This document shows positions 15,273 to 18,536 of a stretch of 37,333 nt of DNA, piece by piece. Position numbers and translations under genes: made by a program. Under the pieces are notes generated by a model that was not told the origin of the DNA, searched no databases, and saw nothing but the letters and a program-made list of their open reading frames with translations. Position 1 is the stretch's first letter. Every line of letters starts with the position of its first letter. The DNA comes from an uncultured Clostridia bacterium (lineage in GTDB: Bacteria > Bacillota > Clostridia > UMGS1883). Location of the stretch: assembly GCA_947630975.1 (NCBI GenBank), contig CANRJP010000015.1, positions 1 to 37,333 on the forward strand. Reading direction: 5' to 3'.

Positions 15273-15647
15273 TTATTTTCGGTACATTTCATCAAGAGTT
15301 TTGCCGTCTTTATTTTTCCATTCGACCCATCCGTTGGTGCTTCCACCAAGTACAAACATTGCTGCCGAACTGGGAGAAGTGAACGGAACAGAAACATTCA
15401 GTATGTACTTGTCACCTTTAAGACCGATATCCCCGTTTTGAAGGGCTGTTTGCCGCTGCTTCTCAATTTTGTCGGAATGACACATGCGGCTCATATCAAT
15501 TTCAGAACCTTCAAGAACTTCAATTTTTTCACCATCATAAACACCAAGGGCATGAACTCCGTTGCGGGTGGTGTGCAATGTGTTGGCATCGTTTAAGGTT
15601 GTTTTGGAGTTTTCCATTGTATAGTTATTAACGCTATAACGTGCCAT
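15273..15647 (-). CDS. DUF4357 domain protein
   Basis: A 124-residue protein whose C-terminus (FVLGGSTNGWVEWKNKDGKTLDEMYRK) is the DUF4357 signature. That domain is often attached to nucleases or restriction-modification proteins. Here it is nearly stand-alone with a short N-terminal extension, so no catalytic site is visible. AAGGA lies 5 bases before the ATG. It is the second gene of a two-gene transcript, 10 bases after the 38-residue ORF at 15658-15774. Low GC relative to the core genes suggests acquisition. Confidence 0.7.
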   Translation of the reverse strand: MARYSVNNYTMENSKTTLNDANTLHTTRNGVHALGVYDGEKIEVLEGSEIDMSRMCHSDKIEKQRQTALQNGDIGLKGDKYILNVSVPFTSPSSAAMFVLGGSTNGWVEWKNKDGKTLDEMYRK

Positions 15648-15824: not shown

Positions 15825-15950
15825 CTGATTGATAATTTTCACTTTAAATTTTTTGGGGGGTGAACAAATTATATAGAGTGTGTTTTCGTGAACACTTTTG
15901 CACTGATCTGCCGAGCAAGGTGTTCAAGCGTCTTTTGTCTGTAAATTGTG

Positions 15951-15979
15951 TTGACAATTTTATATTTTAGTGGTATACT
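15951..15979 (+). promoter_or_regulatory. Promoter of the rpn-like gene
   Basis: TTGACA (15951-15956), 17-base spacer, TATACT (15974-15979), followed by AGAGGGGAAG and the ATG at 16003. Confidence 0.8.
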
Positions 15980-16002
15980 GAAAATAGAGGGGAAGTGGTG
16001 CC

Positions 16003-16866
16003 ATGGCCGAGAGCATACTTGTGAAGCGCAACGTAAAGGACAGCGTGTTCACCAATCTGTTTCAGCATCCCAAATATGTGGCCCAGCTCTATGAGGCCCT
16101 GCATCCGGAGGTTGGAGCTGTTCCCGAGGAAAGAATAGAAATTGTCACGCTGAAAAATATCCTTACGGACAGCATCTATAACGACCTTGGCTTTACCGTG
16201 GATGGGCGGCTTGTTGTATTGGTAGAGGCTCAGAGCACATGGACAGTTAACATCATCATTCGCGGACTTATGTATCTGGTGCAGACTTATCAGGACTATA
16301 TCGAGAAAGAACAGCTAAACGTCTACGGAAGTTCGAAGCTGACCCTTCCCAAACCGGAGCTGTATGTTATTTACACCGGTGAGAAAAAAGTGGATGAAGG
16401 ATATATAACCCTTTCGGAGGAGTTCTTCGGCGGCGAACAGTCGGCCCTCGAGGTGAGGGTCGGTGTCATAACTGATGGTGAACAAGGGGATATTATCAAT
16501 CAATACGTGACCTTCACCAAAATCTACACTGAACAGCTTAAGAAGCATGGCCGCACCCGTGAGGCCATAGAGGAAACCATAAATATTTGCAAGGACGAAA
16601 ATGTGTTAAAGGAATATTTGTCGAGCCATGAAGGAGAGGTGCACGATATTATGTTTTCACTGTTTGACGATGAGCAAATTTTAAACGCTACACTTAGAGA
16701 CTATGAGAAAAAGGGCCGCGAAGAAGGTAAAGCCGAAGGTATTCTTAAAACCCTCAAGTCCATGATGAGCAGTCTGCACTTGACAGCCGAACAGGCCATT
16801 AACGCGGCCAATGTGCCTGAAAACGAGCGTAAAGCATATATGTCGAAGCTTCAGTCTGAAGCATAA
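16003..16866 (+). CDS. Rpn-family PD-(D/E)XK nuclease (recombination-promoting nuclease / putative transposase)
   Basis: A 287-residue Rpn-family protein. The nuclease core is in the N-terminal third: D61-LGFTV-D67-GRLVVLV-E75-A-Q77, the D...ExQ form of the PD-(D/E)XK site. A helical middle follows, then a charged region (EKKGREEGKAEG) and a C-terminal helical tail. In E. coli, Rpn proteins are DNA endonucleases tied to recombination and phage defence, and the full-length toxic form is antagonised by a short C-terminal product made from an internal start. Here codons 210-213 form AAGGAGAGGTG, placed 9 bases before in-frame ATG 16651 (Met217), a plausible internal start. Own promoter upstream; AT-richer than core genes. 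Confidence 0.85.
   Translation: MAESILVKRNVKDSVFTNLFQHPKYVAQLYEALHPEVGAVPEERIEIVTLKNILTDSIYNDLGFTVDGRLVVLVEAQSTWTVNIIIRGLMYLVQTYQDYIEKEQLNVYGSSKLTLPKPELYVIYTGEKKVDEGYITLSEEFFGGEQSALEVRVGVITDGEQGDIINQYVTFTKIYTEQLKKHGRTREAIEETINICKDENVLKEYLSSHEGEVHDIMFSLFDDEQILNATLRDYEKKGREEGKAEGILKTLKSMMSSLHLTAEQAINAANVPENERKAYMSKLQSEA
16651..16866 (+). CDS. Predicted internal in-frame product of the rpn gene (RpnS-like short form)
   Basis: In-frame ATG at 16651 preceded by AAGGAGAGGTG (16631-16641), which would yield a 71-residue protein equal to the C-terminus of the nuclease, without the catalytic core. The same Shine-Dalgarno and ATG are kept in the duplicated module at 16930-16952 despite many synonymous changes around them. 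By analogy with E. coli RpnS it could neutralise the full-length nuclease. Translation from this start is inferred. Confidence 0.5.
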   Translation: MFSLFDDEQILNATLRDYEKKGREEGKAEGILKTLKSMMSSLHLTAEQAINAANVPENERKAYMSKLQSEA

Positions 16867-16901
16867 CACTTCACTTCTTTAACATTTGTAAAGATGAAAA
16901 T

Positions 16902-17147
16902 GTGTTAAAAGAATATTTGTCAAGCCATGAAGGAGAGGTGCATGATATTATGTTCTCACTGTTTGATGATGAGCAGATTTTAAACGCCACACTTAGAGAC
17001 TATGAGAAAAAGGGCATAATTGAAACCACAAAAAAATTAGTGTTCCGCCTCCTCGGGAAGAACAAATCTGACGAGGACATAATGGACACGTTGGACATCT
17101 CCCGCGAGACATTGGCGCAGCTCAAGGCCGAATACGCAAAGGCATAA
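16902..17147 (+). CDS. Duplicated Rpn C-terminal module with a different tail (orphan short form)
   Basis: The region 16884-17014 repeats 16583-16713 of the nuclease gene with mostly third-base changes, covering ENVLKEYLSSHEGEV...LRDYEKKG. The tail then differs completely (GIIETTKKLVFRLLGKNKSDEDIM and on), but is also of a type seen at the ends of Rpn proteins. The open frame begins at GTG 16902. A better start is ATG 16950, with AAGGAGAGGTG 9 bases ahead, giving 65 residues. It may be the remains of a second rpn gene or a free-standing antitoxin for the upstream nuclease. A weak hairpin terminator follows. Confidence 0.6.
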   Translation: MLKEYLSSHEGEVHDIMFSLFDDEQILNATLRDYEKKGIIETTKKLVFRLLGKNKSDEDIMDTLDISRETLAQLKAEYAKA

Positions 17148-17202
17148 ACAAATACGGGTATGGATTTGGTCTAACGTAGTCCCGACCCATGCCCTTGTTT
17201 TA
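17146..17202 (+). terminator. Probable terminator after the Rpn module
   Basis: AAACAA-(ATAC)-GGGTATGG pairs with CCATGCCCTTGTTT with a small bulge, and is followed by TTAACG. Imperfect stem and short T run. Confidence 0.4.
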
Positions 17203-18013: not shown

Positions 18014-18079
18014 TGAGTTATAAATTTAAGACAATACCGCACAGAGATTGTGCCCGTATTGCGCCGCAGATTTTTTGAC
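18014..18079 (+). pseudogene. 5' fragment of a gene cut by a family II repeat
   Basis: ATG at 18014, with GAGGGAG about 7 bases ahead and TATAAT at 17973-17978 upstream, but only five codons (MSYKF) precede the repeat element at 18028. The frame then ends inside the element after 21 codons. It may be the beginning of a gene destroyed by the insertion, or a chance ORF. Confidence 0.3.
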
Positions 18080-18200
18080 GGAATTACGAAAACGACGCCG
18101 GAATACTGTCGTATTTCAAGGAGTTTTCGTAAGATGTCGGAAAAGATGCAAGTAAGAATGGGTACAAAACTCCTTAGCGGTCTTTGTGCGGTATTGCCTT
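18028..18200. mobile_element. MITE-like element, family II, copy 1
   Basis: 173 bp. It begins AAGACAATACCGCACAGAGA and ends in TCTTTGTGCGGTATTGCCTT, its inverted counterpart. The interior holds a second hairpin, CGAAAAC...GTTTTCG. Nearly identical, in opposite orientation, to 20555-20728. Non-coding. Confidence 0.8.
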
Positions 18201-18536
18201 AAAAATGTTTTATTGATAAATCTCAGCTTTATTTTATCTGCAGATGTTTTGTTTTCATTTATATACTTATTCCACGGCCCGTTATTTTATAGCAAAAAGA
18301 TTATTTAAGAACAGTAATAAATCAGAATTTTTCGCAAAAAAACAAAGTGCAGAAAAAGATGACCCAAAAACTATGATAGAATAAAGTTGCTGACACAAAC
18401 ATTAAAATCAAATGGTGCATAGATGGATTGCCATTTTACGAACGCAGAGAGATATATCGATAAAAGTATGCAAATTAAACGAGCAAAACAGGTTCATGAG
18501 CGTAAATTATTTTGCACACAAATTTTACAAATACAC
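18201..18536. other. AT-rich non-coding stretch
   Basis: About 335 bases between the family II element and the promoter at 18537. No ORF with a ribosome site, no clear repeat and no strong hairpin were seen on either strand. Confidence 0.5.

Follow-up and report, generated by a model that had tools for sequence, protein, structure and literature searches.

A divergent Rpn-like nuclease gene with a conserved internal start, followed by the C-terminal module of a differently tailed paralogue, in an uncultured Clostridia bacterium

Why should a nuclease gene be followed by a second copy of its own C-terminal coding region that ends in a different tail, and is either copy likely to give rise to a separate protein? 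This question is raised by a locus lying within a 37,333-nt stretch of DNA from an uncultured Clostridia bacterium of the gut (the whole stretch is referred to below as the window; features are on the forward strand unless stated otherwise). In Escherichia coli, Rpn genes encode a toxic nuclease together with a short C-terminal antitoxin, which is made from an internal start and binds the full-length form (Zhong et al. 2023, PMC10327210). Specificity in that system is set by repeat number, and a second, free copy of the short form can lie downstream and is expressed, as in the case of YpaA (PMC10327210). The analysis presented here suggests that the window locus is probably a divergent toxin-antitoxin locus of the Rpn type, with an intragenic antitoxin and a free-standing rpnS gene left by a sister gene with another tail (tail B, see below).

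The locus is one copy, spanning positions 15933-17168, of a dispersed gene family. Its promoter is of the sigma-70 type (TTGACA-17-TATACT, 15951-15979), with 11 of 12 consensus matches and a TG ahead of the second hexamer. Since the repeat unit shared by the paralogues begins at 15933-15949, the promoter has been copied along with the gene. The open reading frame at 16003-16866 encodes a protein of 287 aa with a tail designated type A. The D...ExQ nuclease core recognized in an earlier note on this DNA is present, being formed by D61 (16183-16185), E75 (16225-16227) and Q77 (16231-16233); R87 (16261-16263) completes the active-site codons at 16183-16263, and D13 is encoded further upstream (16039-16041). 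All five residues are invariant in 18 of 18 homologues (alignment A2). They are the counterparts of D11, D63, E82, Q84 and R94 of E. coli RpnA, mutation of which abolishes or alters activity (PMC5350276), the correspondence having been assigned by residue order, the ExQ motif and the Q-to-R spacing (10, identical in both proteins).

In the AlphaFold model of the 287-aa protein (pLDDT 78) a nuclease core is formed, with D61 and E75 on adjacent strands. The best VIA-align rows were mostly PD-(D/E)XK nucleases at modest scores, all below Z 8 (EndoMS, Z 6.9; Shedu, 5.0; McrC, 4.8; EcoT38I, 4.7), while Foldseek gave no significant match to PDB and viral structures and a profile search of PDB sequences with the nuclease gave no match. 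The protein scored below the curated cut-offs of the Rpn and YhgA-like families (20.9 vs 52.1 bits for TIGR01784, 13.3 vs 21 for PF04754 and 13.2 vs 27.4 for PF12784) and is therefore named Rpn-like rather than a member of a curated family. TIGR01784 is nevertheless its best sub-threshold NCBIfam match, and this model is matched by 10 of the 18 homologues (best E 3e-7). The invariant residues provide good support for a divergent Rpn-like nuclease, which is probably of the PD-(D/E)XK type.

The nuclease was unmatched in PADLOC. Relatives of the gene were not found among the viral contigs searched, and there is thus no sign of phage carriage. Adjoining the gene, on the reverse strand, is a DUF4357 open reading frame of 124 aa (15273-15647), for which PADLOC gave a match (E 3e-26) to the candidate defence family PDC-S14, restricted to the C-terminal third of that family; it is perhaps a remnant of a defence protein or a stand-alone domain. 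A 320-aa open reading frame at 19362-20324 matches another candidate defence family, PDC-M36A (E 6e-16). Two further segments of the flanking region are dispersed repeats, as judged from their recurrence elsewhere: 14820-14903 on contigs C80 and C36 of the same genome, and 18026-18209 on its contig C169 and in a sister species (L023).

Within the nuclease gene, a Shine-Dalgarno (SD) site, AAGGAGAGGTG (16631-16641), is followed after 9 nt by an in-frame ATG at 16651, from which an RpnS-like short form of 71 aa with tail A (16651-16866) would be produced. Both elements are present as described in the earlier note, and the start codon is kept across homologues. As in RpnL/RpnS genes, the conserved SD and start codon stand ahead of the C-terminal domain. 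Between this start and the tail is a linker of four-residue repeats (REEG KAEG, 16717-16740), whose units vary in number and make-up in nearly every paralogue.

The Glu codon at the core of the SD site is GAG in 14 of 14 lineages, compared to 6.2 expected from own-gene codon usage (frequency product 6e-6, with not all of the 14 lineages being fully independent). It is the sole one of 66 conserved degenerate codons that has no synonymous variation among these lineages. All eight further sequences also carry GAG, giving 22/22 in total, and no homologue that keeps the residues while losing the SD codons, a case that had been named beforehand as evidence against an internal start, was found in either group. 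A synonymous-shuffle test of SD strength, performed gene by gene, was weak (most P values 0.05 to 0.5; Fisher chi-square 57 on 38 df), because the K-E-V residues themselves almost spell an SD; per-site and sliding-window tests were used in its place. In the window genus (10 genes), synonymous diversity is lowest in the 8-codon stretch HEGEVHDI (rank 1/215; pS 0.046 against a mean of 0.50), and in Monoglobus (25 genes) the same rank is held by HESEVHDI (1/215; pS 0.042 against a mean of 0.43). In both clades the trough spans the SD and the spacer and stops at the ATG. The SD is thus conserved beyond amino-acid need, as the earlier note had proposed to examine.

The site is also retained where its surroundings change. 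L124 has E-A and L027 has E-D in place of E-V, and the two genes keep AAGGAGG(C) and AAGGAGG(A), respectively. Some homologues have the Met displaced by one codon (DMM, DML), and a Met is found at SD distance nonetheless. In distant genera it is the letters pairing with 16S rRNA (AAGGAGG) that are conserved, and a Met codon follows at a distance of 7 to 9 nt. Chance can be set aside, since the same site occurs in paralogues, in a second species and in other genera, and the arrangement, too, in several of them. It could be argued that the constraint is due to a different signal overlapping the coding sequence (an internal promoter or a recombination site, for example) rather than to a ribosome-binding site: internal transcription starts exist in E. 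coli rpn genes (PMC10327210), a weak promoter-like match (9/12) lies within the second copy of the module, and the spacer of the Monoglobus tandem modules is also conserved. We regard this as improbable, given that the low-diversity stretch extends over SD and spacer as far as the ATG in either clade, and that distant genera keep the rRNA-pairing letters and the Met at its distance even when the Met has shifted by a codon. The comparative evidence, namely SD-codon conservation and the synonymous trough, provides good support for the internal SD-ATG start as a selected feature, and hence for the reading of the gene as a nuclease with an intragenic start.

Directly behind the gene, 135 nt (16881-17015) repeat positions 16582-16716 with 92% identity, the differences being 11 synonymous and 0 nonsynonymous. 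The duplication is slightly longer than the approximately 130 bp of mostly synonymous change seen before. The SD (16930-16940) and ATG (16950) are unchanged in this second copy, which therefore constitutes, as in the case of YpaA, a stand-alone open reading frame with its own SD and start behind a full-length gene. Its putative product is an RpnS-like short form of 65 aa (16950-17147), with no linker repeats and with tail B. The tails of the two copies after EKKG are indeed unrelated; however, the one that had been taken as different is the usual one in at least four of the full-length paralogues of this genome.

The module did not prove to be a re-tailed duplicate of the gene in front of it. 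The module (16881-17147) is 96% identical to L003, a B-tailed paralogue, compared to 92% identity with the upstream gene, and the 3' flank of the module (17148-17168) is also that of L003. In the intervening segment (16867-16880) the sequence follows the 3' flank of the A-tailed paralogue L002, and this likeness stops at 16880. The module thus represents the 3'-terminal part of a sister gene with tail B, now located behind an A-tailed gene. Duplication of the directly upstream gene, which is the reported origin of the downstream copy in E. coli, was ruled out here by the closeness to L003 and the L003-type flank. It should be noted that the synonymous-only differences reach upstream of ATG 16950 (7 synonymous and 0 nonsynonymous there), so the pattern mostly dates from the time when the module was part of a full-length gene and is no proof of present selection. 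A similar junction is found in the sister species (L022), in a contig that stops within the module. In L026, a sister copy, most of the module has been lost and the remaining stub finishes with the ETTK of tail B, and there is no module behind L002; the module is therefore dispensable.

AlphaFold predicts one long and two short helices for the 65-aa form. In a superposition of this model with E. coli RpnA-S (7th0), 46 of 46 residues are aligned at 1.7 A (Z 6.1), but generic helix-turn-helix folds score alike, and the match alone is not proof of relationship. With its predicted three-helix short form and the four-residue repeats in the first helix, the window gene agrees with RpnL/RpnS.

The genome contains eight long copies of the gene, two of which are cut short, in an open frame or at a contig end. 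Their protein bodies are 93-98% identical and diverge after EKKG, the body-tail junction being marked by a varying count of four-residue repeats, e.g. REEG and MEKG. Tail A (ILKTLKSMMSSLHLTAEQAINAANVPENERKAYMSKLQSEA, 16741-16863) is carried in this genome by the window gene and L002, and is shared with L022 and L026. Tail B (GIIETTKKLVFRLLGKNKSDEDIMDTLDISRETLAQLKAEYAKA, 17013-17144) is the commoner tail among the full-length copies of this genome, being that of L003, L004, L005 and L006; it is also the tail of L023, L024 and L025 in the sister species (G007), which has the same pattern of tails and repeats. On body trees the tails are interspersed: the three A-tailed genes need three changes, which is the maximum, and the Monoglobus body tree (25 genes) needs seven, with a well-supported sister pair, L042/L054, carrying different tails. 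Tails have thus been exchanged among bodies. The tail exchange suspected in the earlier note is borne out by this incongruence, and the two outcomes that it had offered for the module, altered specificity and a scar, are not mutually exclusive.

A second Rpn subfamily of the same genus, Transposase_31 by Pfam, comprises L012, L027, L028 and L030. The bodies of L012 and L027 are unlike that of the window gene and score above the Pfam Transposase_31 (YhgA-like) cut-off. The tails of this subfamily are related to A, so tails are common to distantly related bodies, and the subfamily has its own internal SD-ATG (AAGGAGGTCATAGATATG or AAGGAGGATGTAGATATG).

Two further free-standing modules, L010 and L011, were identified in the genome. 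L011 lies directly behind a B-tailed gene whose stop codon overlaps the SD (GCGTGAGGTGCATGTTATTATG); the possibility that L004 and L011 form a single split locus was ruled out by differences both within the overlap of the two and in the sequences downstream of each. In the sister species, the Transposase_31 paralogue L027 is followed directly (TAA-AAAGAGGATGTAGATATG) by its own module. In these two cases, with bodies that are unrelated, the preceding stop codon is thus followed by a module beginning exactly at the SD. In Monoglobus from rabbit gut, downstream sequence could be read for 28 genes; between one and three free modules were found after 20 of these, and contig L079 carries at least three in a row plus one partial. 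The shared sequence begins right at the SD in all 26 distinct Monoglobus modules, which were found by spacer DNA alone; this boundary reflects one event, since a single spacer is common to all of them. L011, L027 and the window type represent further separate events, and SD, ATG and frame are kept in all.

Over the first 15 codons of the Monoglobus free modules, which were picked by spacer DNA without regard to protein, pS is 0.58 and pN 0.05, and these modules are therefore under purifying selection, even though about 4 of the 24 that could be assessed are frameshifted. Such constraint favours a translated function and, together with the recurrence of the modules, lends support to the earlier view of the module as a stand-alone short form. 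The tail type of module and gene in front differs in 8 of 17 pairs (7.9 expected by shuffling), linker lengths agree in 2 of 18 (2.5 expected) and identical linkers were found in none. With agreement at chance level, the modules are not matched to the genes that they follow.

The spacers of the Monoglobus arrays (L036-L083) place TAATCACT-like units (CTATTCGCTAATCACTAATCACTA) in front of every free module. They are far more conserved (p-distance 0.09) than the synonymous sites of the modules (0.45-0.59) and may be a recombination substrate or a functional leader.

How would such a locus work? According to the reading that we consider probable, the full-length protein would be a DNA-cutting toxin of the PD-(D/E)XK type, and ribosomes starting at the SD-ATG at 16651 would make the C-terminal three-helix domain alone. 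By analogy with E. coli RpnS, this short form may dimerize with its counterpart in the full-length protein, thereby blocking the nuclease, so that the 71-aa form would guard its own gene. The module behind it would be a second, free-standing rpnS gene: a B-tailed sister may once have stood in tandem with the A-tailed gene, or been overwritten by it, leaving its SD, ATG, tail and 3' flank. The 65-aa form should not neutralize the upstream gene, as tail and repeat number differ; if active, it would instead target those paralogues, encoded at other sites of the genome, that carry tail B. We infer from the comparison of sequences and models that the short forms are translated and act as specific antitoxins; the same applies to any role in defence against phages.

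A serious competing possibility, to which we would give somewhat less than an even chance, is that the full-length gene has a genuine internal start while the module is only a scar: what recombination has left of a tandem paralogue, no longer expressed and without a function today. Its origin from an L003-like gene, flank included, its decay to a stub in L026 and its absence behind L002 are what such a remainder would look like, and, as it lacks linker repeats, none of the copies observed in this genome would be its matched partner. The open reading frame, SD and ATG of the module are intact, however, and the same arrangement occurs in a second species (L022); free modules also recur from separate events, always with SD and ATG kept, and those of Monoglobus are under purifying selection. 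Modules could also be silent cassettes, whose tails and linker repeats are recombined into an expressed gene, shifting the specificity of toxin and antitoxin together. The shuffling of tails across bodies, the chance-level agreement of module tail and repeat number with the gene in front, and the arrays of two or more modules are compatible with this idea. We consider it fairly unlikely, because pure donor cassettes would need no SD, no ATG and no unbroken frame from the ATG, no donor-recipient pair was found in mid-exchange, and exchange between full-length genes would explain the shuffling equally well. That the tandem arrangement is an artefact of assembling near-identical repeats is very improbable: although this metagenome-derived genome is split into 191 contigs, with several of the copies located at the ends of contigs, the window copy is in the middle of its contig, the junction is seen again in a different assembly (L022), and arrays are found in many separate Monoglobus assemblies.

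Within the preferred reading of a toxin-antitoxin locus with a free-standing rpnS gene, a more specific scenario can be drawn, which we put forward as speculative and rather unlikely in this form. Tail switching would leave a displaced antitoxin, the old C-terminal end staying downstream and shielding the cell from copies of the former specificity. The Monoglobus arrays would then document earlier specificities and serve as a stock of spare antitoxins, to be used against paralogues or rpn genes entering the cell.

In E. coli, both the intragenic RpnS antitoxin and a single copy of it downstream have been described before (Zhong et al. 2023), and an intragenic Rpn antitoxin has been shown there and for one Clostridioides difficile gene expressed in E. 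coli. New with respect to the open-access literature, although later work may exist, are modules bearing the tail of another paralogue, tandem arrays of modules, and the synonymous constraint on the internal start in Clostridia. The synonymous trough provides independent comparative evidence that the internal start is selected and general, and the same approach offers a cheap test for other candidate genes-within-genes. Since toxin and antitoxin are encoded by the same codons, a change of specificity is a puzzle; the arrays of modules with shuffled tails turn it into a testable question, namely by what route such a nested gene might switch specificity while its host survives.

Of the known systems, the closest is RpnL/RpnS of E. 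coli (rpnA to rpnE and rpnP2), which likewise combines a nuclease of the PD-(D/E)XK type (the probable type of the window protein), an internal SD and start before the C-terminal domain, a three-helix short form with variable four-residue repeats in its first helix and, at some loci, a downstream free-standing copy. Variable linker repeats are a common trait of known Rpn proteins and of the window family. The differences concern the body, which in the window is too divergent for the curated Rpn models, and the downstream copy, which in E. coli clusters with its own upstream gene, whereas the window module bears the tail of another paralogue; in Monoglobus, the tails are random relative to the gene and the arrays reach three or more modules. 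YpaA, the free-standing RpnE-S behind rpnE, which was detected by SPA tagging, is similarly a short gene placed directly after a full-length one, but it is derived from rpnE itself, while the window module comes from another paralogue and has no repeats. The YhgA-like Transposase_31 family (PF04754), under whose cut-off the window protein falls, is represented in this genome and the sister species by L012 and L027, whose tails are of the A type and which have an internal start like that of the window gene; L027 is followed by a free-standing module of its own.
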